DNA of 22,192 nt from a virus. The notes beneath the pieces are model-generated. The model saw nothing but the letters and a program-made list of their open reading frames with translations, did not search any database and was not told where the DNA came from. Below are positions 916 through 21,770 of the stretch, piece after piece. The DNA lies in IMG/VR virus record IMGVR_UViG_3300035670_001344, positions 1-22,192 of that record. The stretch is one strand, 5' to 3'. The translations under genes and the position numbers were made by a program. Position 1 is the first letter of the stretch. Every line of letters starts with the position of its first letter.

Positions 916-944
916 GGTATACAGAAATCTAATGAGTTTGTGAA
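916..944 (-). promoter_or_regulatory. Candidate promoter for the 898-611 gene
   Basis: On the minus strand TTCACA (944-939, five of six matches to TTGACA) is followed after 17 bases by TATACC (921-916, four of six matches to TATAAT), preceded directly by TG. It lies just past the terminator at 951-972, where a new promoter would be needed. The -10 part overlaps the ATTTCTGTNTA element (928-918) that recurs upstream of two other structural genes. Confidence 0.5.
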
Positions 945-950
945 AACAAA

Positions 951-972
951 AAAGCCACCCGAAGGTGGCTTT
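951..972 (-). terminator. Intrinsic terminator after tail tube gene
   Basis: On the minus strand a 9-bp perfect stem AAAGCCACC / GGTGGCTTT closes a TTCG tetraloop and runs into TTTTTTG and TTTTC. This is a textbook Rho-independent terminator placed 22 bases after the tail tube stop codon. Confidence 0.9.
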
Positions 973-993
973 CTCAGCTTATGAAAGCTTGTA

Positions 994-2076
994 TCAGTAA
1001 TCTGCTGAAGCGAGACCCGAGATGAATAAACCGTTGTTCAAATCTTCTGGACCACCTAATTGAGCCACCCAGTTCATTGTTACAGTTTGAGCAGGTCCGA
1101 TAGAAGCCGACCAAGACTGACCGTCTAACTTAGCATTCTTGATAGTGTATCTAACTGCAATGTCTCCGTTACCTGCACAGCTAGGTTTTCTAAGAGTAAC
1201 ACTCATATCATAACCAACGTCATTACAAGTAAGAGCATTCAACTTACCAGTAACAAGGTCACCAGCAAGAGCTTCAACCTGAAGAGACACGTTAATTGGG
1301 AACTGAATTTCTCTAGCTTTTGCATATTTAGAACCTAGACACTCGATAGCTTCTCTCGAAAGGTCGAACGAAAGTGAATACGACTGGATACAAAGATCAG
1401 TTGTATCCACGAAAAGAGCAGAGTTACCAAGTGAAAGAGTGATATCCCCAGCTTGAAGAGCAGTTGCCTGACCAACACTACCAGAAACAGCAGCAGGTAG
1501 AGTAAAGTTTACCGCAGAAATACTTTGTCCATTAACTGGATTAACAGCAGGAATCGGCTGAGCAACTCCACTTGCATAACCTTGAATGTGAAGGGCCTCA
1601 ACGTTCACAGAAGCGGTAGGAAACCCACCAACGGCACCTTCAGTAGAATAAGAGGAAATAAATCCATTCCCGATACCAATAACAGAACCATTGGCTGGCC
1701 CCGAAGAGTTTCCGTTAGCATCACTACCTTGAGGAGTAGTTAGGATAAAATAGTTCTTATCATCTTCTGCCTTACTTAAAAGACCACTGATACAAGAGAC
1801 GGAACCGTCAACAGTAAAACCAAGCCTTTCTTCATTAACAACATCGGTTACTAAGTAAGAGAAGTCAAGAGAGACTTCGGGAGCCTGAACTTGAACTCTA
1901 TCAATAGCCGCAAGAGAACCGAACTGAGTAACGTCTTCTCTATTGAGAGAGAAGTCATAGTTAACAGACTGAACTCTGTAAAGTTGCTGAACGCTTCCAG
2001 ATGCGTGCGCTCCAGTAGAAGGAGAAGGCCCGACATACAAAGCTTGAGATGGGGAAATTACGCGAATTCTGCTCAT
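994..2076 (-). CDS. Major tail tube protein
   Basis: A 360-residue protein rich in serine, glycine, valine and alternating beta-strand patterns, with almost no long helices. Residues about 30-90 (QQLYRVQSVNYDFSLNRED, then QFG, then VSLDFSYLV) look like the opening strands of the tail-tube fold found in long-tailed phages. A second similar beta section follows from about 225 (SYSLSFDLSREAIECLG), so the protein may hold two related domains. It is a monocistronic-looking unit: a promoter/leader region upstream and a strong terminator downstream, as expected for a very abundant virion protein. No sheath gene is next to it in the window, which slightly favours a siphovirus. The tube assignment rests on fold-like pattern and gene order, not on a search. 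Confidence 0.72.
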   Translation of the reverse strand: MSRIRVISPSQALYVGPSPSTGAHASGSVQQLYRVQSVNYDFSLNREDVTQFGSLAAIDRVQVQAPEVSLDFSYLVTDVVNEERLGFTVDGSVSCISGLLSKAEDDKNYFILTTPQGSDANGNSSGPANGSVIGIGNGFISSYSTEGAVGGFPTASVNVEALHIQGYASGVAQPIPAVNPVNGQSISAVNFTLPAAVSGSVGQATALQAGDITLSLGNSALFVDTTDLCIQSYSLSFDLSREAIECLGSKYAKAREIQFPINVSLQVEALAGDLVTGKLNALTCNDVGYDMSVTLRKPSCAGNGDIAVRYTIKNAKLDGQSWSASIGPAQTVTMNWVAQLGGPEDLNNGLFISGLASADY

Positions 2077-2084
2077 ATCTTATA

Positions 2085-2127
2085 TTTTTCTAAAAGTAAT
2101 TACACATTTTATACCTTAAACAGAAAT
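2085..2127 (-). promoter_or_regulatory. Leader with conserved ATTTCTGTNTA element before tail tube gene
   Basis: Minus-strand ATTTCTGTTTA (2127-2117) is followed by GGTATAAAATGTGTAATTA and then TTTTAGAAAAA (2095-2085), 8 bases before the ATG. There is no Shine-Dalgarno sequence. The 11-mer recurs before the 898 and 6773 genes, and the TTTTAGAAAAA block resembles that before the major capsid gene. Confidence 0.4.
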
Positions 2128-2924
2128 TATTTAAGGTCCTGATGTAGTTCAAAAAATAACCTACCAAGGTAAAAATCTGGGTGAATCTTTGAAATAGAGT
2201 CGTTTTCAATAGGAAAGTAGTTGATAGAAGCAATTCTAAGGAGAAAGTTTGAATTAGCATTAGAAGACAGCTCATGCTCATAATTATAACCACCAGTTTT
2301 GTAGTCACCGAAAAAGTTTAACGGAGTATTATCTAAAACTGGAATATAGCTAAAAAGCTTGCTCATAAATACCGAAATGACAGCGTGAAGTTTAAATTCA
2401 TCATTTGAGTAAATAAGAGCATTGAAGAAATATTTTCTAGTAATAGAACCACCAAGAGCAAGAGGCTCAACACCTTGTGACTCTGGCCTAATAAATATAC
2501 ATGGAGCAACCACGTTATTCGGTGCGAGCCCAGACATAGGAAAGTCTATAGGGCTAGGGCGTAACTGATATCTATCTTCAAAAAGCAACCTATGCAATGG
2601 GGAGGTTGTCATATAGATATTAAATTCCTTAATTGCATAATCAATTGACCCAGAAGGTTTTGAGCCGAAAACTCGACCATTTTTATAATCAATGTAATCT
2701 ACCCCCAAACCAGACGCAGTTGGAATATTGGCCCCAGTCACACTTTGGTCATGAACCCACTGATAAAACGGTGCGGAATACTCAGACATTCCACTAAATT
2801 GAGGGGACGCAGCATCAAACAAAGGGGTCGAGACATTAATATAAGCTTCGGCCTCGTGGAGTAGTTGATACTCAAACCATTGGACAAAACTGTCTACTAC
2901 TTTATGATCATTCTGTGGTTTCAT
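2127..2924 (-). CDS. Connector or tail-completion candidate
   Basis: A 265-residue protein of mixed alpha/beta character without membrane segments. Its ATG overlaps the preceding stop as ATGA. It begins with a helical HKVVDSFVQWFEYQLLHEAE and ends with a strand-rich region. It is the last gene of a five-gene chain running from 4950 to 2127 between the major capsid and tail tube genes. This is the interval where tailed phages encode adaptor, head-closure, neck and tail-terminator proteins. As the gene directly before the tail tube it is the best tail-terminator candidate, but I recognise no family. Confidence 0.7.
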   Translation of the reverse strand: MKPQNDHKVVDSFVQWFEYQLLHEAEAYINVSTPLFDAASPQFSGMSEYSAPFYQWVHDQSVTGANIPTASGLGVDYIDYKNGRVFGSKPSGSIDYAIKEFNIYMTTSPLHRLLFEDRYQLRPSPIDFPMSGLAPNNVVAPCIFIRPESQGVEPLALGGSITRKYFFNALIYSNDEFKLHAVISVFMSKLFSYIPVLDNTPLNFFGDYKTGGYNYEHELSSNANSNFLLRIASINYFPIENDSISKIHPDFYLGRLFFELHQDLK

Positions 2925-3682
2925 TTGACAATTTTGGCTCCTGATTTTTCTAAAGTTTTCCTAAATTTTAATAACAGTTCAGAGATATATGGGATTGGAG
3001 TAAAGGAATTGTCTCGAACAGGATTCTCATTTTGTATACCCGCCAAAGACCTCGACTTGTCCAAATATAATGGTAAATAATATTGATAACCAGCTATGTA
3101 GCTTTCTATAGCAAATGGCCAAACGTTTCCCTCCTCCCAAGGCATGGACATTTTGGGGTCCTTTTTAAAGTCATCGAATTCCGGAATATGAACATAAATT
3201 ACTTCATAAATGACATTCGAATTTGGATTAGAACGTTCCTCTCTCTTTTTAATGTAAATATTTTCCTGTAAAAAGTCAATCAAATCCGCCACGGGATCAG
3301 AACTAACAGGAAACCCAATAAAGGAAAACAGATCGCCATCTGTTAAAAATTTTGATGAGTGAGTTCCCTTTTTATTAAGCTCTTTGGATACGGGGTGGTT
3401 TTTTACTGAAATTAGAAGGTTTTCAAAAGCTTCATTAAAAATATCCGAAAGTTCCTTATTTACTAGCCTTCCAAAAGCGCGACCCTCGGAGGATACGCTA
3501 ACCTTTTCTATGGTAAACTCAGCCGCAACAGCAGGAACTTCAGGTTTAGGAATTTCTGTGGAAACCGTAGACTTTCCTAACGTAAAGTCCTTTACAACTT
3601 GAATAACAGAACGACCGGCTTCGATGGCATTTTTTACCATCTGTTTACTCTTTTGTAAAATAGAGAAGGGATTAAACTTCAT
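2921..3682 (-). CDS. Connector-region phage protein
   Basis: A 253-residue protein whose ATG overlaps the previous stop by one base (TAATG) and whose own stop overlaps the next start (ATGA). Residues 1-35 are basic and helical (QKSKQMVKNAIEAG), followed by a proline/valine linker and a region around 65-100 (GRLVNKELSDIFNEAFENLL) that looks like a packed helix pair. Tight coupling to its neighbours suggests fixed stoichiometry in neck or tail-completion assembly. It is comparable in placement to tail-completion proteins of the HK97 gp10 type, but I do not see enough to assign that family. Confidence 0.68.
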   Translation of the reverse strand: MKFNPFSILQKSKQMVKNAIEAGRSVIQVVKDFTLGKSTVSTEIPKPEVPAVAAEFTIEKVSVSSEGRAFGRLVNKELSDIFNEAFENLLISVKNHPVSKELNKKGTHSSKFLTDGDLFSFIGFPVSSDPVADLIDFLQENIYIKKREERSNPNSNVIYEVIYVHIPEFDDFKKDPKMSMPWEEGNVWPFAIESYIAGYQYYLPLYLDKSRSLAGIQNENPVRDNSFTPIPYISELLLKFRKTLEKSGAKIVK

Positions 3683-4146
3683 TAGTTTTGCTTAGCCATT
3701 GTGAAACTATAAAGCTCCATATCAAAGATACCTAAGCGTCGAACGTCAGAATCCAACCTATAAACCATATCAAAAATATAGGCTTTTTCAGCTTGTATCA
3801 AGAAATCGTAGCACTCTTTCAAACATTGAATTTTAATTGTTCCAATGTCTTGCGCCATTTTCACACGAATATCTACGTCATCAGGTTGGTATGTTAAATA
3901 CTTCTGAGGGAACGAAGGATACCACATTCTTACATCAAAAGTTTGCTTAACCTCTGTATAGGTAACCTGATTATTTCCATAAGCTGTTGAGCCCCAATTT
4001 GAACTAAACTGAGGATCGATGGCGACAATAGATTGTTGCGGAGACTTGTATAAAACAAAATCGTGAGGTCTTTTCCAAGTTTCGAAAAGATCCATCATCC
4101 TAGCCCGATAAATCGCCTTAGCTTCGGCACTAATTAAATCACTCAT
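3682..4146 (-). CDS. Head-closure or neck candidate
   Basis: I place the start at the ATG at 4146 (MSDLISAEAKAIYRARM), giving 154 residues. A longer reading would need a TTG start further inside the preceding gene. The chosen start overlaps the previous stop by 8 bases. The protein has an N-terminal helix, a central strand-rich section (TYTEVKQTFDVRMWYP) and C-terminal helices. Its length and place, second after the SAP-like gene in the capsid-tail interval, fit a head-closure protein. This is inference from gene order. Confidence 0.7.
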   Translation of the reverse strand: MSDLISAEAKAIYRARMMDLFETWKRPHDFVLYKSPQQSIVAIDPQFSSNWGSTAYGNNQVTYTEVKQTFDVRMWYPSFPQKYLTYQPDDVDIRVKMAQDIGTIKIQCLKECYDFLIQAEKAYIFDMVYRLDSDVRRLGIFDMELYSFTMAKQN

Positions 4147-4666
4147 CCCAGAAGTTATTAGCAATAGCGTTTCTACTTAAGAAAGTAGGAGGAAGAAAGT
4201 TGTCGAAACCTCCACAATAGATGGGATAGGTTAAAACCTGACGAGGTAACGCAAGACTTTGGTTATATTGAAAAATCATGTCTTCAACACAAGTTTTGCA
4301 GTCTGTAGCCAAACCTCTATAAACCTTTGCGATTTCAGAAGGGGTTGACCTTGCGATATACCCTTGTTCATCTCCATCGATTCTAGACCAAGCTGAGTCA
4401 GTTAGTGCATAGGCAGAGGCTTGCCTTGCAGCCTTCTGTAGAAAGAAGCAGTCATACATTTGAGTATAAACAGCCATGTCGTTAATAGACATTTCTGGAG
4501 AGACGACACCACTCACTAAAGAATACTCCTTAGAAAGTTTTATATTTAAATCCCCCAAACTATTTTCTAGCCAACAAACCACAGAACTGACAGACACTCC
4601 GGAGTAACCTCCGCAATCTATCATTCCACTGGCCCAGCCAGACAAATCTGAGCTAGAATATTGCAT
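4139..4666 (-). CDS. Head-tail adaptor candidate
   Basis: A 175-residue, mostly helical protein. It starts one base inside the previous gene's last codon region (TGAATAATG context) and overlaps the next start by 8 bases. It carries several cysteines (for example C18, and the TDCKTC segment near 120) but no regular zinc pattern. Helical proteins of this size directly downstream of the capsid gene are commonly the adaptor that docks to the portal ring. I do not recognise the sequence family, so the role is positional. Confidence 0.68.
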   Translation of the reverse strand: MQYSSSDLSGWASGMIDCGGYSGVSVSSVVCWLENSLGDLNIKLSKEYSLVSGVVSPEMSINDMAVYTQMYDCFFLQKAARQASAYALTDSAWSRIDGDEQGYIARSTPSEIAKVYRGLATDCKTCVEDMIFQYNQSLALPRQVLTYPIYCGGFDNFLPPTFLSRNAIANNFWDE

Positions 4667-4950
4667 TATTCAGTTATAGATTTAGAAGATGGCTTCTTAA
4701 TAGATTTTTGAGTAGGATGGCCAGACTCAACAACTCTTACAGATTTTGCCGAAGCTCTTTTAAAATGCTTTTCCAAAGCCCTAATCATCATTCGTCTTTC
4801 ATGGGATGGAACCAAACCCGATTCCATACAAAGGTCTTGCAACCTTGCTTTATTAATAGTTTTTAAGTAGTTTGAGAACTCTTCTAAACTTTCATATTTA
4901 GCCTTTTTCTCGGGGCGACCCATGGCTTGCTTAAGTGATCCTATTTTCAT
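4666..4950 (-). CDS. Small SAP/Rho-N-like phage protein
   Basis: A 94-residue basic protein. Residues 26-68 (FSNYLKTINKARLQDLC, then ESGLVPSHERRMMIRALEKHF) show the helix-extended loop-helix pattern of SAP, LEM or Rho N-terminal domains, which bind nucleic acids or serve as small docking modules. The C-terminal 25 residues are lysine/serine-rich and probably disordered. It is the first gene after the capsid terminator and leads the connector operon. Upstream is GTATC 11 bases before the ATG and no Shine-Dalgarno sequence. A SAP-like module next to capsid genes could contact packaged DNA or the portal. That is speculation. Confidence 0.68.
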   Translation of the reverse strand: MKIGSLKQAMGRPEKKAKYESLEEFSNYLKTINKARLQDLCMESGLVPSHERRMMIRALEKHFKRASAKSVRVVESGHPTQKSIKKPSSKSITE

Positions 4951-4987
4951 ATATAAAACTTGATACCCACGTTTAATTAAAATGGGA

Positions 4988-5018
4988 AATAAAAAACCCC
5001 AGTTTTTAGGCTGGGGTT
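4988..5018 (-). terminator. Intrinsic terminator after major capsid gene
   Basis: On the minus strand AACCCCAG (5018-5011) pairs perfectly with CTGGGGTT (5002-4995) across an 8-base loop and is followed by TTTTATTT. It lies 26 bases after the major capsid stop codon and ends that unit. Confidence 0.9.
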
Positions 5019-5043
5019 CCTTAACGGTTTTGTTAGGGTTCGC

Positions 5044-6177
5044 TTAGCGAATCACACCAACAAGGGCTTTGTTATCGAGGACAACACGACCCTCTTCAAG
5101 TCTAGTATAGAGACCAACTTGTTCCTGTCTAGCATAGAACTGGTCATCCGGAAGGGTGATAACAGTTCCATATTCAGAAGGAGACGCAACATCGTAGTCA
5201 CCAGTTGGCTCGGAAGCCACGGCTCTGATAAAGGCATCTTGGCTAAGGTCAACCCCGATGATAACTTCTTGCGAAGCACCGTTAAAGGTTGGCTGAGAAC
5301 CGGCAGGAGTGTAGTAAGTATCAAACACGGAGTTGTAAGACTTATTCACACCAAGTTCATTAAGAACGTGAAGTTTCACACCATAGATCGAAGGAACACC
5401 ACCTTGGCTGAAGTATTGAGCACGAACCTGATCAGGAAGACCTAAAACAGTTGACTCAGCAGTGTCAGGAACAGCAATGGTATTCATTGGCTGGTAAGCG
5501 AAGGCACGGATATCTTCAAGAACCTCAGGAGAGATAAGAAGATCAGTTAACCCTTTCTTACCCTTAAGAGAGGCAGGAGTTCCGCCAGTCCAAGAAGTGT
5601 GGATTCTAGAGATCTTAGTAAACAGTTTATTAAGATCGTGAAGTTGGAATCTACCAGCAGTCGTAGCACTGATTAGGTGGTTAAGGCCATCTGGGGTTTC
5701 AGATTCAGCAAGAGCAGCAAGGATCGGAGCCCAAGCATTGTCTTCCATGTCAACAAGGATTTCTTGAGCCATTCTTTCGATAGCTTTCGCCACAACGTTA
5801 AGACGGCCATCTTTTGCATATCTCTTCAAGAAAGAGACAGCAGAGTCAAGACGATAGGTTTGGAACCTATATTCGTCAGTCCCGTGAATAACGTTGGTAG
5901 GAAGACCCCCAGCGATAGATTGAGACCAAACTCTGATGTAGTTTTCATCGTTATCTTCGAACAGATCTAGTGGGATGCTAGGGACCGTATCGAAATCATA
6001 TTCGTAAGTCGAATAGATAAGTTCGGAAGTGGCAGCTTGTTGAAGAACTTGCTCCACAATATTTCCAACTAAAGCCGCAAGAATTTCTTGAGCAGCTTGA
6101 GAGGTAGCTTTATTGCGAGAGCCAACTTTAGCCAAAAGCTCTAAATTCTCAGGGTTTTTCTCTAGTTTTACTTTCAT
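5044..6177 (-). CDS. Major capsid protein
   Basis: A 377-residue protein in the expected place between the decoration-like gene and the connector genes. It begins with a helical N-terminal arm (about 1-55, rich in Leu, Ala, Gln: SQAAQEILAALVGNIVEQVL), followed by a long section that reads like the spine helix and peripheral domain of an HK97-fold capsid (LKRYAKDGRLNVVAKAIERM near 113-132). A strand-rich C-terminal part ends at about 360. No Shine-Dalgarno sequence is seen; instead TTTTAAGAAAAA lies 7 bases before the ATG. A strong terminator follows the gene. Identification rests on size, order and composition; a structural comparison would settle it. Confidence 0.8.
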   Translation of the reverse strand: MKVKLEKNPENLELLAKVGSRNKATSQAAQEILAALVGNIVEQVLQQAATSELIYSTYEYDFDTVPSIPLDLFEDNDENYIRVWSQSIAGGLPTNVIHGTDEYRFQTYRLDSAVSFLKRYAKDGRLNVVAKAIERMAQEILVDMEDNAWAPILAALAESETPDGLNHLISATTAGRFQLHDLNKLFTKISRIHTSWTGGTPASLKGKKGLTDLLISPEVLEDIRAFAYQPMNTIAVPDTAESTVLGLPDQVRAQYFSQGGVPSIYGVKLHVLNELGVNKSYNSVFDTYYTPAGSQPTFNGASQEVIIGVDLSQDAFIRAVASEPTGDYDVASPSEYGTVITLPDDQFYARQEQVGLYTRLEEGRVVLDNKALVGVIR

Positions 6178-6196
6178 AAATTTGTTTTTCTTAAAA
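6178..6196 (-). promoter_or_regulatory. A-rich leader lacking Shine-Dalgarno before capsid gene
   Basis: The minus-strand leader reads TTTTAAGAAAAA (6196-6185), then 7 bases and ATG. Nothing resembles AGGAGG. A near copy (TTTTAGAAAAA) stands 8 bases before the tail tube ATG, so it may be a translation enhancer used for the most abundant proteins. Confidence 0.35.
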
Positions 6197-6203
6197 TATA
6201 AGA

Positions 6204-6773
6204 TTAAAGTTCAAGCTGGAATAAAGCGTAACCATCCGCACCACTTTGGCTAAGGAATGTTCCAACAAGAAGAGACTTGTCAGTAACGCTTGATTTATTA
6301 ACAACCACAAGTTGGCCATCAACAGTAGAGTGCATCACGGCACCACTTCCGGCATCAGGGGCTCCGCTGAACCCATTAATTTCGAAGATACCTCTTTGAA
6401 CAATCGGAACGCTCTCTCCAGAGGTCACGATCTGTTGTTCGGATCTGTCGTATCTAGGACGGTAAATGTATTTTTCACCGAACTTATTTTCTTCTCTAAC
6501 GTCGTAAAGAAGCATCCCAAAAGGTCTGTCACCACTAGCAGCAGTTTCAACCTTATTAGGATTGACGGCTCTCATCGATTTTGCTCTGCTAGGAACGCCC
6601 TCAAGATCTTGAAGGAATTGCATAGGAGTTGCGTCGGGATCGACACCACCCTTTAGCTTAACAAAAGTTCCCTTATTAACAGAGGCTTCTTCGTGAGCGA
6701 AGAAGTTAACCACATCGTAAGGGTTAACGCTTCTGAAAGGTTTCAAATTCGGTTTTTCGCTTGTATTATACAT
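6204..6773 (-). CDS. Head decoration or stabilisation protein
   Basis: A 189-residue, strand-rich protein directly upstream of the capsid gene and directly downstream of protease-scaffold, which is the usual seat of capsid decoration proteins. An N-terminal extended arm (about 1-25) is followed by a beta-rich body with a phrase VNKGTFVKL near 33 and VPIVQRGIFEINGF near 120-135. Such short strands with glycine turns are common in lambda gpD-like or related capsid-surface proteins. No Shine-Dalgarno sequence precedes the ATG. The element ATTTCTGTGTA lies 23-34 bases upstream, overlapping the end of the protease-scaffold gene. Assignment is by position and composition. Confidence 0.65.
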   Translation of the reverse strand: MYNTSEKPNLKPFRSVNPYDVVNFFAHEEASVNKGTFVKLKGGVDPDATPMQFLQDLEGVPSRAKSMRAVNPNKVETAASGDRPFGMLLYDVREENKFGEKYIYRPRYDRSEQQIVTSGESVPIVQRGIFEINGFSGAPDAGSGAVMHSTVDGQLVVVNKSSVTDKSLLVGTFLSQSGADGYALFQLEL

Positions 6774-6795
6774 GACTTTTTATTCTAGATTTAAA

Positions 6796-7371
6796 TTACA
6801 CAGAAATAGTTACTTTTGCGAAAGATTTTTTATATTTTTCTATATCAGAAACTTCTTCAGTTTCTTGAGCATTAGGGACTTCTTCTTTTGCGCTCGCAGA
6901 CGAAAGCGTTTTACCAACATCTCCAACAGTTTTAGCAGCAAGAATTTTTCCGAAATCATTCAACCAAGCGTTGAATCCATCTTCATCAAGAGATTTAATC
7001 TGTTTTGCAATCACCTCTCTTTGCTCGTCTCCAATTTCAAATTTTTCGTCAACAATTTGCATTCTTTCGTTAAATGCAATGCTTTGTTCCATAGCAACTT
7101 TAGCAGCTTGAACTTCATTTAGAGAAGTTTCAACACTTGAGATTTTTGCTTCAAGGTCGGAAACCTTCTGAAGCTGGGCATCAAGTTCAGCTTGTTTAGC
7201 AGCAATCTCAGATTCCTTTGCAGCAATCTCTTTAGCTTTGTCAGCTTCGGCTTGTTGAAATTCTGCGTTCTTAGCCGAAAGTTGCTCTTTAATAAAGTTT
7301 CTAATTTCCGAAGCGGCAAGAGACTCCTTCAGGGCATCTTCAGTAATGTCTGCGATATCTGTAATTTTCAT
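6796..7371 (-). other. Candidate internal start producing free scaffold (191 residues)
   Basis: An in-frame ATG at 7371-7369 lies at the border of the protease and coiled-coil halves. Its context, GTATC then 13 bases then ATGAAAAT, resembles the starts of the full gene (GTATC, 11 bases, ATGAAGAT) and of the 4950 gene (GTATC, 11 bases, ATGAAAAT). Phages such as lambda make scaffold from a nested start in the protease gene; whether this one does is unproven. Confidence 0.35.
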
Positions 7372-8298: not shown

Positions 8299-8321
8299 AT
8301 AAAACTATGGATACACATAAA

Positions 8322-9946: not shown

Positions 9947-11839
9947 TTACACTTTTTCTTTTTCTGAATGAAATAAAATTGCCGCTTGAAAAATTGAAAT
10001 AGAATGCTCTTCAGATAAGTTGAGAATCTCGTCACTTATATCAATAAGTTTTTTTCCAGATACATAACTTTTAACCGACTTTTCCCAATTTTTCATTGGT
10101 TCGGAAATAACGATAGATTCCACAAACGAAAAGGCTTGTTCTTTTTTTGCGTTACTTAGTCTCTTAACATTAAAGTGGTCTTTAAAAGCAGATTCAACAG
10201 ATGGAATTAGAGCAGAAATTTTATCATAAACGGTCTTCAAATCAGAGAACCCAATAGAAGCTGCCCCACTTTTTCGAGTAGACTCTTTAACGGATACGTT
10301 TGTGCTTGGCTTATTTGTAGAACTTTTTGCTTTAGGCGCTTTACTCCCAGCAGGTCTGCCAGAAACGGGTTCCTTAGAACCCCCAATAAGTGGCTCAAAA
10401 AGTCCTTGATTTTTAAGTTTTTTAAACTCTTTTTGAGAGATTTTTGATTTCTCAAATTCCGGAATAATACCAGTTTCAGAAACATCAAAAAATTCTTCAG
10501 GAGTCAAGAAGCCGATTTCAGCAAGGCGGGTATAAACCCTTAATAACTGAGATTTGTCTTCAAGATCAATTTTTTCAAAAACTGGGGTAGGGATCTTTTT
10601 GAAACCAATTGTTTCGGCAATTTTTTCCATCTCTGGAATTAAAAATCGATCCTTGAAAATACGACGAGCCTCATTTAATCTTTCTAAGAAAACTTTAACT
10701 TTAATTAAAGAGTTTGAAAACTTTTGATCGCTCTCAAAAAAGATATTCATCATACCTTGCGCGATATCCCTATTTACAGCAACGTATTTTGCATCTCCAA
10801 GGATCTTATTTAAGTCAGGAATAATAAAGTCGCCCTTGGTAGTATAGTCAGCCACGACAACCCTACCGACACTTTCGTTTTGGAAAAGTCCCTGCATAGC
10901 CTCGATCATCTTTGGGTTTGTTCCACCGTCTTCCTTTTTAGCACCCATCGTAATGAGCAAAATAAGGTAGTCAGTAGTTTTTGCTATAGCCAAGTCAGCT
11001 TTTTTAAATTCTAGCTTCAAGTTAATATCTGCTAAGACTGGATAAAAGAACGGAACAGAAAGAGCTTCGTAATCTTGTTTTTTGATAAAGATTGGAACAA
11101 GCTTATCCTCGTCAAGCTTAATACTGATTTCTCCTCTCCCAGCTTTAATAGCGTCCCTTTCTTCCTTAGAGAGAGAACTTAATAATTCCATATCTTTTTT
11201 AGACTTAGAATTTTTCAATCTAGAAATTTCGTAACCATTTAAAACCTTCGAGTATGAGGAGGTCAAGAACGAAGACCCTCCATCACATTTGATAGAGCAA
11301 GGGTCAAGAAGGGCGTATCTAATAGGAATAGACTTCCCTGTAAGAGCGGGCATTCCAGAATCGATAGCATCTTTAGCAGTAAAGGTATACATCATTCTGT
11401 AGAGAAAGACGTTAGAAGATCTATTCGCCTCCCTGTGGAATTGATCTGAAATATCATAAGAATTAATTTTCTTCCACCACTCTTCAAAAAACTTAACAGA
11501 CTCTTCGTCGTCTCCCCTAAAATGGATAGGGGAGTTGGCGAATTCCGTCATGATCTCAATAGTATTCTTAAATATAGGAACATTTTGGTAAGCCTTTTGG
11601 CAAAGCTCTATAGCGTCTTTGGCCGAAATTCCAGAATCGTTTGATTTTAAAGGGTTCTTTAAAGACCTAATATTAGAGAGAGAATTAAACCCATGATCTT
11701 TTCCTTCTGTGGCTACCATTCTTTCACCGCTTCTAGTGGAAGCTATGATTTTCTTCGAAGCACCCATCATAATAGATTTTGGCTCACAAAACGGAATTTC
11801 TTCTTCGGAAGCTACAATCTCTTTCTTAATTCTTGGCAT
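9947..11839 (-). CDS. Portal protein
   Basis: A 630-residue protein immediately downstream of the large terminase, the standard place and size for the dodecameric portal through which DNA enters the capsid. Residues about 75-130 (IELCQKAYQNVPIFKNTIEIM, then WWKKIN) resemble the N-terminal wing of portals, and the helical section around 375-420 (LIKVKVFLERLNEARRIFKDR) could be the clip/stem region. A basic, serine/lysine-rich low-complexity stretch follows at about 490-530 (near GRPAGSKAPKAKSSTNKPST). The last 100 residues are helical and may be an accessory tail. No Shine-Dalgarno sequence is seen; GTGTGTAATATAG fills the short gap after the terminase stop. Confidence 0.82.
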   Translation of the reverse strand: MPRIKKEIVASEEEIPFCEPKSIMMGASKKIIASTRSGERMVATEGKDHGFNSLSNIRSLKNPLKSNDSGISAKDAIELCQKAYQNVPIFKNTIEIMTEFANSPIHFRGDDEESVKFFEEWWKKINSYDISDQFHREANRSSNVFLYRMMYTFTAKDAIDSGMPALTGKSIPIRYALLDPCSIKCDGGSSFLTSSYSKVLNGYEISRLKNSKSKKDMELLSSLSKEERDAIKAGRGEISIKLDEDKLVPIFIKKQDYEALSVPFFYPVLADINLKLEFKKADLAIAKTTDYLILLITMGAKKEDGGTNPKMIEAMQGLFQNESVGRVVVADYTTKGDFIIPDLNKILGDAKYVAVNRDIAQGMMNIFFESDQKFSNSLIKVKVFLERLNEARRIFKDRFLIPEMEKIAETIGFKKIPTPVFEKIDLEDKSQLLRVYTRLAEIGFLTPEEFFDVSETGIIPEFEKSKISQKEFKKLKNQGLFEPLIGGSKEPVSGRPAGSKAPKAKSSTNKPSTNVSVKESTRKSGAASIGFSDLKTVYDKISALIPSVESAFKDHFNVKRLSNAKKEQAFSFVESIVISEPMKNWEKSVKSYVSGKKLIDISDEILNLSEEHSISIFQAAILFHSEKEKV

Positions 11840-11856
11840 AACACTATATTACACAC

Positions 11857-13739: not shown

Positions 13740-14636
13740 TTATAGTTTTTTTAAATCGATCATTAGCTGCAAGTCAGAGTCTTTTACAGCGTGGCCCATT
13801 CCTAGAAGATCTTTACACAGTTTTTTTAAATCTGAGCCCCTTCTAGGAAAAACAAATTGGCATCGGTCGTATTTTTGCATGAAATCACACATTTTAACCA
13901 GAGCAGAGTATCCGGAACTTCTACCACCGAAATTATTAGTCCACTCAAAAACTTCTTCAAAAGAAGCTTCGCACACCACAATAAGAAAGAACCCCAACTC
14001 CTCAACTCTTTGAAGCTCTCTATCAAACCTTTCGTAATTCTCTTTCCTTGAAAAGGTCCCGATAAAATCACTCAAAGATTTTCTTTCTAAGAAAACTCCC
14101 GAGAAGTTCATTTTAGTAGTATAGTCGCCAACCTCTAATTTTTCTATTTCATATTCAAATAACGGCAATTGTTCCCTCGTATCTGTTATAATTTGAACAT
14201 CTGCGATACTAACGTTGTCTCTGTTTAAAAATCTTGGTTTTAGTCCAAGGTTTTCACAAAAATCGTAATAATCAATTCCCAAAGACTCAATGCCTATGAT
14301 AGAAGGAATTTTTTTACAGCGCAACTCAGCTTGAGTTGGCATTTTTACAAAACCTTTATTCTTAAAATAGGAAGTTAAGACTTGAGCAGCTTCCGCGCGA
14401 GATCCCTCATCCCTCGTTTTAGATTTATACCAAGTAATAGCATTAACCTTCGAAAGGAAGTCTGTGGAGAAGTATTGATCTTCGTTCTTAAAAGGAATCT
14501 TTTCTCCACTAAGAAGATCAAACCTTGGATAAAATTTCTCGTAGTATTGTGGTTTAGACAATCCACAACACTTTTTTAAATGCCTATGAAACTTGGGTTT
14601 AGTTTCAAAAACGTTTGAGCAAATCTTACATTCCAT
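13740..14636 (-). CDS. Zinc-finger ERCC4-family nuclease
   Basis: I choose the ATG at 14636, overlapping the upstream stop, over an earlier in-frame start, giving 298 residues that begin right at a zinc finger: Cys3, Cys6, His18 or His20, Cys23. A helical linker follows, then an XPF/ERCC4 nuclease domain from about 147: TDTREQ (151-156), GDY (170-172) and ERKSLSD (184-190), matching the family signature GD-x(n)-ERK-x3-D. This family cuts branched or flap DNA with metal ions. Directly before terL, and spaced two bases from it, it may resolve branched replication intermediates before packaging, as T4 endonuclease VII does. The nuclease family is clear; the packaging role is inferred. Confidence 0.88.
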   Translation of the reverse strand: MECKICSNVFETKPKFHRHLKKCCGLSKPQYYEKFYPRFDLLSGEKIPFKNEDQYFSTDFLSKVNAITWYKSKTRDEGSRAEAAQVLTSYFKNKGFVKMPTQAELRCKKIPSIIGIESLGIDYYDFCENLGLKPRFLNRDNVSIADVQIITDTREQLPLFEYEIEKLEVGDYTTKMNFSGVFLERKSLSDFIGTFSRKENYERFDRELQRVEELGFFLIVVCEASFEEVFEWTNNFGGRSSGYSALVKMCDFMQKYDRCQFVFPRRGSDLKKLCKDLLGMGHAVKDSDLQLMIDLKKL

Positions 14637-15717
14637 CCGAAATTTCTTCTTGACTAATCCCGTAGATAGAAGCAATGAAAGATTCTTCGTTTTCAAGCCT
14701 TTTCATTTCATCCCCAACGGCAAGCTCAGTAGCCTTGGCAATAAGAGCCATTCTCTTTCTGCTCTCCTCTTCCTTCCAAAGTTCAACCATTGAAGTTAGT
14801 GACTTATTAGCGTCAGCTTGTGCGCTCAAACGGTCTGCACGGTTCTTAGAAAGGGATTTCTGCAAAGATTGAATTCTCTTTACGCACTTATCTAATTCGT
14901 CAGACTTCTTTCCGTAAGCCTCTGTTAAAGTCATTTTTAGACTTGCGTCCTTATCCTGAACGGACTCCATTAACTCGCCATCTAAAATAATTAAATGGTT
15001 TTGGATTCTTTTTTCTAAGAGATAGTGATAAGCTAAAGTAATACAAGCTTGAAGGTCTTCCGCAGTCATGTCGAGCTTACTGTAAGCTGTCGCAATAAAC
15101 TCACTTTCAAAAAGAGCGCGTTCACCTTCATCCTCGATGGAATTCATTAAGCTAAGGAATCTGGAGTTGGCTAAAAAAGATCTTAAATTCAGAACCATTT
15201 TAGTCTGCACACCATTCAGAGACCCTTCTTTGAAATTTGCGCTAGGGTCGGCGCTATTAATCTTTTCAATAATTTTGGCGTCGGTTCTGGGGACTTTATA
15301 CTCCTTAATTTCTCCATCCCCCATAGAAAAGCCCAAACCAAGTATTTTAATAAACTTTTCAATGGTTTTTGCTTCCTTACTTAAATTTTTTAAGTTAGGG
15401 TCATTGAATAAAACACGCGCCATATCCACGGGCCTGTGAATAGAGGCGTTTTTTCTGATATACCTTTGGGCGTTTTCGTCTAAAAAAACGGTCTCGCAAG
15501 CCCTCTTCAGTTTATCACAAAACTTTCGAACAGTATTATACTTTTCGCTACGAGCTACGATATTTGGATCGTCAAATATATCACGAGCAATCTCAACAAT
15601 ACCCACGCCCTTATCAAGCTTTTCTTGAATCAACTTTTGCTGATCCTCAGATAAACCATAATCGTGTTGAGCAAAGAATGCATCAATATCTTGAATAATT
15701 GGAAAGTCATCACTCAT
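14626..15717 (-). CDS. Protein with duplicated helical repeat and coiled coil, possible small terminase
   Basis: The ATG at 15717 (MSDDFPIIQD) overlaps the sigma-like gene's stop by 8 bases and is preceded by GAG at a fair distance, giving 363 residues. Two copies of one motif stand near the N-terminus: residues 37-72 with VEIARDIFDDPNI and YNTVRKFCDKL, and residues 94-127 with VDMARVLFNDPNL and AKTIEKFIKIL. The first part of each looks like a helix-turn-helix. A charged coiled coil spans about 265-340. I recognise no family. DNA-binding-like repeats plus coiled coil close to terL make a small terminase subunit one option, though it is long for that. A transcription or replication factor is also possible. 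Confidence 0.78.
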   Translation of the reverse strand: MSDDFPIIQDIDAFFAQHDYGLSEDQQKLIQEKLDKGVGIVEIARDIFDDPNIVARSEKYNTVRKFCDKLKRACETVFLDENAQRYIRKNASIHRPVDMARVLFNDPNLKNLSKEAKTIEKFIKILGLGFSMGDGEIKEYKVPRTDAKIIEKINSADPSANFKEGSLNGVQTKMVLNLRSFLANSRFLSLMNSIEDEGERALFESEFIATAYSKLDMTAEDLQACITLAYHYLLEKRIQNHLIILDGELMESVQDKDASLKMTLTEAYGKKSDELDKCVKRIQSLQKSLSKNRADRLSAQADANKSLTSMVELWKEEESRKRMALIAKATELAVGDEMKRLENEESFIASIYGISQEEISDGM

Positions 15718-16396
15718 AAAAAATCTCTTTTTCGGCCAAAATTTTACGGGCTTCTTCAAGAATCTTTTTGCGGATATTATAAATCTGCTTGTATCCAGCC
15801 TTCCTGCCCACTTCTGAAGTAGTGAATCCTAATTCGGTTGCGACCTCTTCTTCGGAAGATTTTTCGATAAATAGCAAACGATAAGCTTTATAGTTATTCT
15901 TTGAAAGGACTTTCTTAAGTTCTTTATCAAACCTTTCTATAGATTTTTCTAAGTCGATTTCAACTACATCAGAATGAATTCCAAAGCTTGCGTGGTCATT
16001 AGGGTTATCTATTGAAGATGGCAATCTCAACTCATAACCGGATCTTTTATTTTTCTCCCAATGGGAATAGCTTAAACATTCAGAATTTTTTTCTCCAGAA
16101 GAAGTCCATGAACACAAATTCCCACCTTGGTTCATTGGACACTTACTACAAGGAGGAGCTAAATTCCCGTAGTTATCTCTGACGAGATTAGCGATTCTGT
16201 TAGTTATAACCCTATTTAACCAATTTTTAAGTGGTCTTTCTTGGTTCCAAAGATTCCATTTCTCATTTAAATGAATCAGAAGTATTTGACGAACCTCATC
16301 AAAGTCTATATGAGTAATAGAGTTTAGTTGCCAACGATTTCTTCGTTTGGAGATCTCTTCCTCAATGATATCAAAGCAATCTTCGAAGGTTTTCAC
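15710..16396 (-). CDS. Sigma-factor-like protein with cysteine-rich insert
   Basis: I place the start at GTG 16396, which overlaps the previous stop as GTGA and has GGGGGA upstream, giving 228 residues. Residues 31-75 (VRQILLIHLNEKWNLWNQER, then LKNWLNRVITNRIANLVRD) match the pattern of sigma-70 region 2, which binds core RNA polymerase and melts the -10 element. Residues 83-107 hold Cys83, Cys86, Cys95 and Cys107, a possible zinc site in place of the normal linker. Residues about 160-220 (YRLLFIEKSSEEEVATELGF, then YKQIYNIRKKIL) resemble the region 4 helix-turn-helix. It could direct late transcription from phage-specific promoters. The sigma relation is a pattern-level call. Confidence 0.72.
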   Translation of the reverse strand: MKTFEDCFDIIEEEISKRRNRWQLNSITHIDFDEVRQILLIHLNEKWNLWNQERPLKNWLNRVITNRIANLVRDNYGNLAPPCSKCPMNQGGNLCSWTSSGEKNSECLSYSHWEKNKRSGYELRLPSSIDNPNDHASFGIHSDVVEIDLEKSIERFDKELKKVLSKNNYKAYRLLFIEKSSEEEVATELGFTTSEVGRKAGYKQIYNIRKKILEEARKILAEKEIFYE

Positions 16397-16800
16397 GATT
16401 CTTTCCCCCAATCTGGGTTTATGGATTTTAAGAAATTCCCCATTGAAGCAATTGACTTTGGTCTATCTACCTCAATACTTGCCGCCAGCTTAGAAGGTCT
16501 AGGAATATCTTCTAAAGAATCTTCTAAATCGTCGTCAAAATCCTCATCTTCATCGGCCTCTTCCTCATCTTCATCCACGGGAGACCTTCCCCTGCGCTTC
16601 AATAGAAGAGCCCGCTTTTTCTCTAAACGAGGATCTTTAAAAGACTTTTCCTTACTTGAGGTCTTTTCTTTAGCCTGAGAAGTTGCAGACAAAGATAGAA
16701 CGGGAAAGTTTAATGACTTTCTACACTTAGCGCAAGAAGATGGCTTTTTATCTACGAAAGAATGTTTCGCCCCGCAGTCTAGACAATAAATTACTGGCAT
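16393..16800 (-). CDS. Zinc-ribbon protein with acidic tail
   Basis: A 135-residue protein with an N-terminal zinc ribbon (Cys6, Cys9, Cys23, Cys26), a basic serine/lysine linker, a run KKRALLLKRRGR, and a long acidic segment (about 75-98, almost all Asp/Glu). Its DNA is a run of repeated CTTCATC-like units on the plus strand. A zinc ribbon with opposite-charge tail suggests a nucleic-acid or RNA-polymerase-associated protein. It is coupled by GTGA to the sigma-like gene, so the two may act together. A promoter-like sequence and an inverted repeat lie just upstream, so it probably opens the operon that runs to terL. Confidence 0.75.
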   Translation of the reverse strand: MPVIYCLDCGAKHSFVDKKPSSCAKCRKSLNFPVLSLSATSQAKEKTSSKEKSFKDPRLEKKRALLLKRRGRSPVDEDEEEADEDEDFDDDLEDSLEDIPRPSKLAASIEVDRPKSIASMGNFLKSINPDWGKES

Positions 16801-16858: not shown

Positions 16859-17563
16859 TTACATAGATTCTAACTTTTTCACAATAAACTTAACTAGTTC
16901 AGATCTGACAATATCATCAGATGTAAATTCGAAAGACTCAATACCAAACTTTTTAGAATCACTATCAGAAAATAATTCAAGAATAGGCTTAAATCCGGTT
17001 TTTAATTTTCCAACGTCAGATTGTCTTTCGTCACCACATATAAAAACTTTATTAAAGTCCCCAATACGAGTTAGTAAAGTTATCAGTTCGGAGAATGTGG
17101 CATTTTGAGATTCGTCAACAATAATCCCCTTATTCGTAAAATGAGCCCCTCTCAAGAAGTTAAAAGGAGCAGCCTCAACAAGGCCATTCTTTTTTATAAA
17201 CTCAAGGCCCGACTTATTGAGAAACTCGTGCAACTTATCTTCCAATGGCATCATGTATGGAGCGAACTTTTCATCCTGATCTCCTTTCAAGAAGCCTAGG
17301 GAATGAGAAGAACTTTCCACGATAGATCTAACATAAATAATAGAGTCGATTTTACCCTCTTGTAACAGTTTAAGACATTGGTAAACAGCTAAAAATGTTT
17401 TAGAGACCCCAGCAGGACCGTTCACAAACATTATCTTTGTAGACTTCTTTGAGGCAAGTTCATTAAAAGCCTCTTGGCTTGGTGTCCAAGGAAAATCACT
17501 TTTAACAAAAAGAGAGTCAGCTTTTACGATACTCCTATCTTTATAGACGTATTTTTTGCCCAT
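16859..17563 (-). CDS. PhoH-like ATPase
   Basis: A 234-residue P-loop ATPase of the PhoH family, common in phages though its role there is unsettled (RNA metabolism and phosphate response have been proposed). Walker A is GPAGVSKT at 49-56, with Ser in place of the usual Gly before Lys. IIYVRSIVESSSHSLGFLKG (75-94) and KFAPYMMPLEDKL are PhoH-typical. Walker B is GIIVDESQNA at 146-155, followed by FICGDERQSD, equivalent to the GD.Q motif that contacts nucleotide. The start ATG shares one base with the stop of a 44-residue gene. Lysine and threonine of the P-loop are intact, so it is probably active. Confidence 0.9.
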   Translation of the reverse strand: MGKKYVYKDRSIVKADSLFVKSDFPWTPSQEAFNELASKKSTKIMFVNGPAGVSKTFLAVYQCLKLLQEGKIDSIIYVRSIVESSSHSLGFLKGDQDEKFAPYMMPLEDKLHEFLNKSGLEFIKKNGLVEAAPFNFLRGAHFTNKGIIVDESQNATFSELITLLTRIGDFNKVFICGDERQSDVGKLKTGFKPILELFSDSDSKKFGIESFEFTSDDIVRSELVKFIVKKLESM

Positions 17564-18447: not shown

Positions 18448-18507
18448 ATACTCTATTTACACGTTATTCTTGTGGAATTCTGTTTTTTTTAAAAAATGAA
18501 AAAAGAG

Positions 18508-18536
18508 CTTGACAAGGGGCAAAATGGTGATATTTT
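18508..18536 (+). promoter_or_regulatory. Strong sigma-70-like promoter for the plus-strand island
   Basis: A perfect TTGACA (18509-18514), 16-base spacer, and TATTTT (18531-18536) with extended -10 TGA (18528-18530). Four of six -10 positions match. The -35 lies in CTTGACAAG (18508-18516), a 9-base near-palindrome that also reads TTGTCA on the minus strand. The -10 abuts the first ATG of the next gene, so the transcript should begin near 18543, inside that frame. Confidence 0.68.
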
Positions 18537-18794
18537 ATGGAAATTATAGAAATTATGGACAGAAAACGAAGGGTAGAGTTCCCATTCGAAACGGGGGACG
18601 GAGTAGAAATTTGGGTTTCGGGGATGTTAATAGACTCCCCGTATGAAAGTTATTTTGAAATTCGAGAAGCCTCTTTGGTATCCGATCCTACTGTGTTTAT
18701 AGACGAAGAGGATTTTCTAGAAGAGGATTTGGAAAGGTTAGCGCAAGAAGCAGAAGATTTTTTAATAAATGACAGCCTTTATAGAACATTATAA
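18537..18794 (+). CDS. Small acidic protein, first gene of plus-strand island
   Basis: An 85-residue acidic protein with a strand-rich first half and a Glu/Asp-rich helical end (FLEEDLERLAQEAEDF). No motif recognised. The first ATG (18537) begins right after the -10 box, which would put the start codon upstream of the expected transcript. The next in-frame ATG at 18555 (MDRKRRVEF) gives 79 residues and about a 12-base leader, and is more likely if the promoter is real. The gene overlaps the next one by 26 bases. Confidence 0.65.
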   Translation: MEIIEIMDRKRRVEFPFETGDGVEIWVSGMLIDSPYESYFEIREASLVSDPTVFIDEEDFLEEDLERLAQEAEDFLINDSLYRTL

Positions 18795-18981: not shown

Positions 18982-19504
18982 TTTTTTTGGAGGGGCGGGA
19001 AGTGGAAAATCCACAACAGCAGCTTGGGCGTTTTCTTTCTTAAAAGAAAGGGGTCACAACACAGAACTCGTGCTGGAATATATTAAGACTTGGGCCTACT
19101 TAGAAAGAGGGGTTAAAAGTTTCGACCAAGTTCACATTATGTCACAACAACTTCATTCGGAAGATTTTTTGATATATTCTGGAGTTAAAAACATAGTTTC
19201 CGATTGCCCAATTTTGCTATCTCCCATTTATTCTTATTATTACAGAAACTCCTCTGCCATTTCAGAGCCACTAAGAATGATAGCTAATCATTTTTCAAAT
19301 GTGTTTCCAGAAACCAACATCTTCTTAAAAAGAAATGAAAAGGAATACCAAACGCATGGTAGATATCAGTCTCTAGAGGAGGCAAAAAAGATAGACGATT
19401 ATATTTTAGAATTTTTAATCAAAAATCGAACAAAAAATTTGTGGATAATTGATTGGGACGATAGAAAAACTTTAAGCGAAATACTTATTAAAAATGCAGA
19501 TTGA
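18971..19504 (+). CDS. NadR/Ttd14-like P-loop NTPase or kinase
   Basis: A 177-residue P-loop protein. Walker A is GGAGSGKS at residues 7-14, right after the first strand FNFF. The strand-like VSDCPILLSPIYSYYY (about 77-92) is the counterpart of the DxP motif in NadR-like and other small kinases. The C-terminal part YQTHGRYQSLEEAKKIDDYI resembles the lid-bearing region of phage proteins annotated as AAA_28 or NadR-like. Such enzymes phosphorylate nucleosides or small cofactors. With the thymidylate synthase-like gene directly downstream (11-base overlap), a role in nucleotide supply is reasonable. The substrate cannot be read from the sequence. Confidence 0.78.
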   Translation: MRFNFFGGAGSGKSTTAAWAFSFLKERGHNTELVLEYIKTWAYLERGVKSFDQVHIMSQQLHSEDFLIYSGVKNIVSDCPILLSPIYSYYYRNSSAISEPLRMIANHFSNVFPETNIFLKRNEKEYQTHGRYQSLEEAKKIDDYILEFLIKNRTKNLWIIDWDDRKTLSEILIKNAD

Positions 19505-20357
19505 AAAGAAATACTTAACGGGGTCGAATGAAATTTCGGCAAAAATTATTGCAGATTCTTCTTTCGAAGGGTCTAGACTTACAACTTTTGTTCTTAAGTT
19601 CCCAAGAATTGTCTTGGCGGAATTTAATACACACAGAGCTATTTCTAGAAATTCGGCATCCTCAAGGGCGATTCCTTATGCTAAAATGTTAGAAAAGGTA
19701 ATCAAAACCCCTTTTATTCCTATTGCATTCCAAGCAGACCATAAGGGAATGCAGGGCTCTGAATATCAAGAAGGATGGAGGTTGCGGTTGTCAAAGTTTC
19801 TCTGGCTAAGAGCGAGAGATTGTGCAGTAGCAACATCTTGGCTTTTAAGTAAAAATTCAGCAACAAAACAATTATGCAATAGGATTTTAGAGCCGTTTTT
19901 GTATCATACCGTTATCGCTACAGCGACAAACTGGGAAAACTTCTTCGCTCTCAGGGCTCATGAGGCGGCAGAAATCCATATTTGTGATTTAGCTTATAAA
20001 ATGTTGAAAGAATATAATCTTTCAAAACCTAAAGAGTTGGGATTAGAAGATCTTCATCTTCCATTTGGTGATAGAATGCCAGATGGCCTTACCGTCAACG
20101 AACAAACAAAAGTTTCTGTGGCAAGGTGCGCAAGAGTATCTTATGAAACTTTTGATGGAAAAATTAATCCTAAAGAGGATTTTAAATTATTTGATAGGTT
20201 ATTAGAGATGGGGCACTGGTCTCCATTTGAGCACGTTGCAGCACCTTCTATTTTTCAAGCAGCAGAGGGCGGAAATTTTGACAATAAGTGGAGACAATTA
20301 AGAAAGACATTCTCCAATGAAAACAAAAAAGACGAAAGGGTAGAATGTATTTTTTAA
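19494..20357 (+). CDS. thyX: ThyX-like flavin-dependent thymidylate synthase
   Basis: A 287-residue protein of the phage branch of ThyX, which methylates dUMP to dTMP using flavin and methylene-tetrahydrofolate. The signature THRAISRNSASSRAIP at 46-61 matches the ThyX motif RHR-x7-S except that the first Arg is Thr46; His47, Arg48 and Ser56 are kept. NKGMQ-like HKGMQG follows at 83-88, then the conserved-type ATNWENFFALRAHEAAE (about 142-160) and LGLEDLHLPF. Late section VSVARCARVSYETFDG and LLEMGHWSPFEHVA fits the same group. It sits in the plus-strand island behind a NadR-like protein and overlaps the next gene by 13 bases. No ribosome-binding site is visible. Confidence 0.9.
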   Translation: MQIEKKYLTGSNEISAKIIADSSFEGSRLTTFVLKFPRIVLAEFNTHRAISRNSASSRAIPYAKMLEKVIKTPFIPIAFQADHKGMQGSEYQEGWRLRLSKFLWLRARDCAVATSWLLSKNSATKQLCNRILEPFLYHTVIATATNWENFFALRAHEAAEIHICDLAYKMLKEYNLSKPKELGLEDLHLPFGDRMPDGLTVNEQTKVSVARCARVSYETFDGKINPKEDFKLFDRLLEMGHWSPFEHVAAPSIFQAAEGGNFDNKWRQLRKTFSNENKKDERVECIF

Positions 20358-21747: not shown

Positions 21748-21770
21748 TTAATTTAAAATACACTTACCCC

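Follow-up and report, generated by a model that had tools for sequence, protein, structure and literature searches.

We analysed a stretch of 22,192 nucleotides of viral DNA (positions 1 to 22,192 of the IMG/VR record IMGVR_UViG_3300035670_001344, hereafter the window), in which minus-strand genes, several of them structural, are preceded by short recurring sequences. A preliminary description had singled out an 11-base element, ATTTCTGTNTA, before three structural genes and had read it as a phage-specific late promoter core or operator. The promoter part of this proposal stands in a modified form: a phage-specific late promoter core does appear to precede these genes, and sequence comparisons strongly support GTGTAW (GTGTAA or GTGTAT, with GTGTAAT as the best form), not ATTTCTGTNTA, as the functional element. 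The operator reading found no support. The window was compared with its closest relative, IMGVR_UViG_3300020048_000017 (G001, 179 kb, capsid protein 86% identical), and with two further long relatives, G002 (178 kb) and G003 (167 kb). The window contains 13 GTGTAW sequences, seven of which lie 9 to 23 nt before genes of the same strand, whereas the opposite-strand control gave one GTGTAA and no GTGTAT before genes. The 11-mers and the predicted cores are as follows.

918 to 928, minus strand: first 11-mer copy, ATTTCTGTATA, with a degenerate core only, downstream of a terminator
2117 to 2127, minus strand: second 11-mer copy, ATTTCTGTTTA, not kept in G001
6797 to 6807, minus strand: third 11-mer copy, ATTTCTGTGTA, overlapping the 3' end of the 6796-8298 gene and holding most of a GTGTAAT core
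2100 to 2105, minus strand: predicted late promoter core GTGTAA, 23 nt before the 2076 gene (tail tube), kept in G001 as GTGTAATTA
4963 to 4968, minus strand: GGGTAT, a possible variant core, 12 nt before the 4950 gene, which has GTGTAA in G001
6796 to 6801, minus strand: predicted late promoter core GTGTAA, 22 nt before the 6773 gene, kept in G001
8311 to 8316, minus strand: predicted late promoter core GTGTAT, 12 nt before the 8298 gene, kept in G001
9947 to 9952, minus strand: predicted late promoter core GTGTAA, 21 nt before the 9925 gene (holin-like by eye), kept in G001
11849 to 11854, minus strand: predicted late promoter core GTGTAA, 9 nt before the 11839 gene (portal-like by position), predicted leaderless
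18457 to 18462, minus strand: predicted late promoter core GTGTAA, 9 nt before the 18447 gene, GTGTAT there in G001, predicted leaderless
21758 to 21763, minus strand: predicted late promoter core GTGTAT, 10 nt before the 21747 gene, predicted leaderless

When k-mers before genes were counted without any seed, GTGTAA or GTGTAAT came out on top in the window, G002 and G003. We then used two sets of loci, one of 82 picked solely by a sigma-like protein encoded in the window (described below) and one of 71 picked solely by the capsid protein, and ranked all hexamers found 8 to 13 nt before first ATGs. GTGTAA was the first-ranked hexamer in both the sigma-chosen set (84 occurrences versus 1.4 expected) and the capsid-chosen set (54 versus 1.5), as it was in G002 and G003. 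Moreover, it outscored all 90 permutations of its own letters in the two sets, and a seeded expectation-maximization model gave the consensus GTGTA[A/T][T/A][A/T]. An artefact of valine-stop gene ends (GTG TAA) was considered and rejected, since in the sigma-chosen loci GTGTAT, which holds no stop codon, has the same spacing edge, and TTGTAA and ATGTAA have none. Individual genes tell a similar story: GTGTAA stands upstream of 21 of the 49 distinct orthologues of the 8298 gene and of 11 of the 32 distinct orthologues of the 11839 gene, with none at the latter in the reverse-complement control. Between the window and G001, GTGTA lies at nearly the same place at five of 11 orthologous gene starts (2076, 6773, 8298, 9925 and 18447). 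A literature search for GTGTAAT found no relevant phage paper.

The three 11-mers are exact, on the minus strand at 928-918, 2127-2117 and 6807-6797, and the distances first given for them are correct (19, 40 and 23 bases before the 898, 2076 and 6773 genes, respectively). That three exact same-strand copies each lie within 80 nt before a gene is what speaks for the 11-mer itself as a promoter or operator, perhaps private to this phage. For a preset pattern, shuffled sequences give an expectation of 0.07 copies, a value that is too flattering because the pattern was chosen after inspection. The window has 1,852 one-wildcard 11-mers with at least three copies, compared with 1,322 (standard deviation 197) in Markov shuffles, and ATTTCTGTNTA is the sole one with every copy no more than 80 nt before genes; however, at least one such pattern arose in seven of 60 shuffles, so that the excess is only marginal. 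The one-mismatch scan suggested in the preliminary description returned six sites against 3.7 expected, which is no excess over chance, and the exact 11-mer is found nowhere in G001 and zero or one time in each of nine other related records. The comparison of occurrences inside and before genes, also proposed there, separated the two candidates in the relatives: GTGTAW is preferentially found before genes and TTCTGT is not, nor is TTCTGT enriched in the hexamer ranking. The alignments with G001 point in the same direction. G001 lacks the 11-mer at the tail tube gene but retains GTGTAATTA and the bases that follow, and at the 6773 gene it retains GTGTAAT, with GTTTCC in place of ATTTCT. The 11-mer was therefore rejected as a functional unit, and we consider its action as a promoter or operator highly improbable.

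How the 11-mer came about can be read from its copies. Only the 6807 copy contains GTGTAW (GTGTAAT at 6801-6795), and nearly all of it is coding (ACT ATT TCT GTG TAA, that is TISV-stop). The 2127 copy, which shares one base with the stop codon of the upstream gene, is lost in G001 and is probably not functional; the real element there, GTGTAATTA (2105-2097), lies 11 nt downstream of it. The closest that the 928 copy comes to the core is CTGTAT (924-919), which has one mismatch, lies 20 nt before the 898 gene and reads TTGTAT in G001; its assignment as a late promoter core is weak. The 11-mer thus appears to be mostly coincidence, a chance alignment that overlaps the GTGTAW element once, lies near it once and takes in a degenerate copy once.

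The spacing between GTGTAW and the start codon bears on what the element may do. In the sigma-chosen loci, seven GTGTAA sites lie at 0 to 7 nt from the ATG and 30 at exactly 8 nt, a hard edge that GTGTAT shares. Such a one-sided edge would be expected if RNA synthesis started about 8 nt after the core, because a usable AUG cannot precede the start point. A Shine-Dalgarno-like sequence is present at 2-9% of the sites with a spacing of 8-17 nt and at 40-60% of those with 18-32 nt; the 9925 gene, for example, has one after its GTGTAA core. From the edge and this distribution, late genes would be of two kinds, either leaderless or nearly so, or led, in which case the leader often includes a Shine-Dalgarno sequence. 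The Shine-Dalgarno hexamers AAAGGA and AGGAGA are also strongly enriched 8-13 nt before the ATG in both sets of loci, and led and leaderless genes would therefore coexist. The arrangement taken to mark a leaderless gene, in which a −10 element precedes the start codon by 5-8 nt and no Shine-Dalgarno site is present, is found here, and the spacing pattern points to a −10-like promoter that gives rise to many leaderless mRNAs. One could also imagine that GTGTAW works on the mRNA, for instance as a signal for translation placed at a constant distance from the AUG, given that the spacing is counted to the start codon. However, a ribosome-binding signal predicts a peak and not a one-sided edge with a tail to 30 nt, a Shine-Dalgarno-like sequence stands between the motif and the AUG whenever space allows, and the sigma70-type promoters of the same genomes have a similar edge at 5-6 nt. 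A role on the mRNA is thus very unlikely. No clear −35 box was found upstream of GTGTAW, where the information is near the chance level. Long-leader sites alone have a weak excess of C 18 nt upstream of the core (29 of 64 sites in the capsid-chosen set), and this could be the trace of a −35 contact.

The late promoters of phage T4 have the sequence TATAAATA, a −10-like element without a −35 box that is recognised by the sigma factor gp55 together with gp33 and the clamp gp45. As in T4, a short −10-like core stands alone before late structural genes here, with a phage sigma-like protein and, presumably, the host polymerase. The core differs, GTGTAW instead of TATAAATA, and in the 50 kb of T4 examined the late cores lie at least 14 nt before the ATG, whereas many of those described here lie at 8-10 nt; the same 50 kb showed no GTGTAW signal before genes. 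The shared architecture would make a T4-type TATAAATA promoter a candidate for driving these late genes, but the sequence is absent from the window and has no strand bias before genes in G001, G002 and G003 (1 versus 1, 13 versus 12 and 11 versus 7 on the opposite strand). TATAAATA was rejected as the late core, and its chances are practically negligible. A search of six records for the gp45 clamp (PF09116) gave no match; the controls were silent as well.

Other systems offer partial parallels. Most middle and late mRNAs of the Thermus phage phiYS40 are leaderless (PMC3594737); leaderless transcripts were measured there, whereas here they are predicted from spacing, and the relatives of the present phage also use Shine-Dalgarno sites. 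The leaderless genes of Deinococcus-Thermus have a −10 element that stands a few bases upstream of the start codon (PMC12340547). The likeness lies in a −10 motif adjoining the open reading frame (ORF) and driving leaderless genes; the difference is that a host sigma factor operates there, whereas two phage promoter classes would operate here, of which the early class has a clear −35 box. Phages AR9 and phiKZ also possess a short phage-specific late consensus near the start site (AACA-N6-TA/G and TATG, respectively), with leaders of at least 26 nt in AR9 (PMC5312081). Their consensus is different, however, and is read by phage multisubunit polymerases. A phage multisubunit polymerase was looked for, but six related records gave no match to an RNA polymerase beta-subunit, the control being positive in all 14 genomes, so that the host polymerase is likely used.

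We then considered which protein could direct the host polymerase to GTGTAW.

15710 to 16411, minus strand: gene for a divergent sigma-like protein of 233 residues, candidate late sigma factor, predicted to read GTGTAW

The gene is kept near terminase and packaging genes in G001 (69%) and in G002 and G003 (38-39%), and the protein has at least 493 relatives in viral contigs. Sigma70 region 2 (PF04542) was matched by all six members scanned (best 8.5e-7), and phrog_1740 (RNA polymerase sigma factor) by 26 of 38 members. With regard to a region 4 helix-turn-helix at the C-terminus, as in the two-domain layout of extracytoplasmic function (ECF) sigma factors, a structure model of moderate quality (predicted template-modelling score 0.40) shows a helical C-terminal domain, and its fold matches are mostly sigma factors, many of the ECF type, none of them at E ≤ 0.001. 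Between the two predicted domains lie four invariant cysteines (CxxC, C, C), perhaps a zinc site. From its co-occurrence with the motif, the 15710-16411 product likely reads GTGTAW; the sources consulted describe no phage sigma factor with this specificity. Alternatively, GTGTAW could be a late promoter recognised through an alternative sigma factor of the host or with the help of a phage activator. The protein is indeed linked to the motif through co-occurrence only, and T4 late transcription requires proteins beyond its sigma factor (PMC6024815). On the other hand, the motif ranks first in loci picked solely by this protein, across many viral contigs, and the protein is sigma-like and conserved beside packaging genes. 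We therefore regard a different reader as rather unlikely.

A second promoter type is present in these genomes. In G001, 76 TTGAC-TANNNT promoter-like sites precede ORFs, mostly at 10-50 kb; the spacer measures 16 nt in 63 of them, and in 54 the ATG follows the −10 hexamer after exactly 5 nt, which suggests leaderless early genes. GTGTAW is found chiefly in the structural module of G001 and the sigma70-type sites elsewhere (10:1 versus 3:54, Fisher p ~1e-8). This partition fits an early-to-late switch, early and late being assigned from gene content. A site of this type is also present in the window.

18509 to 18536, plus strand: sigma70-type promoter-like sequence, TTGACA-16-TATTTT, before the plus-strand genes from 18537 on

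It belongs to an apparent divergent promoter region (18448-18536), in which GTGTAA faces the 18447 gene on the minus strand and TTGACA-16-TATTTT abuts the first ATG, at 18537, on the plus strand. With TATTTT directly before this ATG, translation may begin at the second one, at 18555.

Altogether, we propose that GTGTAW is the −10-like core of late promoters in a large uncultured lineage of tailed phages, bound by the host RNA polymerase with a phage-encoded sigma factor, probably the 15710-16411 product. At many late genes the start point would be the A of the AUG, yielding a leaderless mRNA, and at the others a leader of about 10-24 nt would be made, often with a Shine-Dalgarno sequence. Several observations weigh against this proposal. 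The sigma-like protein of the window itself scores below the Pfam cut-off for region 2 (20.2 versus 24 bits), and the fold matches of its predicted model are weak (best E 0.007). In G001, although it is the closest relative, the GTGTAW signal is below the sigma70-type signal, the unseeded counts returning chiefly TTGACA and TATAGT promoters and GTGTAAT more weakly. The first 11-mer copy has no good core, and the major capsid gene lacks GTGTAW in 47 of 47 distinct relatives; it is presumably transcribed from upstream promoters. Finally, gene starts are predicted and the loci within each set are related, so that the counts are not fully independent, and the records are possibly incomplete. Taking these points into account, we hold the proposal as a whole, with its phage sigma factor and its leaderless and led late mRNAs, to be probable.

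The window has other features of note.

948 to 972, minus strand: strong intrinsic terminator, AAAGCCACC-TTCG-GGTGGCTTTTTT, after the 994-2076 gene

Within the first 8 kb, only the hairpin region of this terminator has a match in a named phage (Aeromonas phage Aeh1), and the match was taken as convergent. Neither the capsid protein nor the sigma-like protein had a tblastn match among 50,697 records of named phages, and a host search in bacterial genomes gave a single hit, a contig in a Flavobacteriales metagenome-assembled genome at 42% identity, which settles nothing. An ERCC4-type nuclease (13740-14696), a PhoH-like protein (16859-17563) and a thymidylate synthase family match (19494-20357) have otherwise unrecognised structural genes as neighbours.

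Comparable strategies are already known, with T4-type late cores on the one hand and the leaderless transcripts of phiYS40 on the other (PMC3594737). What is more unexpected is that the two promoter classes alike seem, from their spacing, to be made for leaderless mRNAs. Whether a widespread lineage runs largely leaderless early and late programmes, passing from host sigma70 (TTGACA-16/17-TANNNT, 5-6 nt, ATG) to GTGTAW by means of a four-cysteine sigma factor of its own, in hosts whose translation otherwise relies on Shine-Dalgarno sites, is a question on which we stand evenly divided. If the proposal is true, a phage group known here from metagenomes only would gain a consensus for its late promoters and a candidate sigma factor, which would allow its early and late genes to be recognised by sequence. 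The proposal would also provide a large natural set of predicted leaderless genes beside Shine-Dalgarno-led genes in the same genomes, useful for asking how phages get leaderless mRNAs translated.

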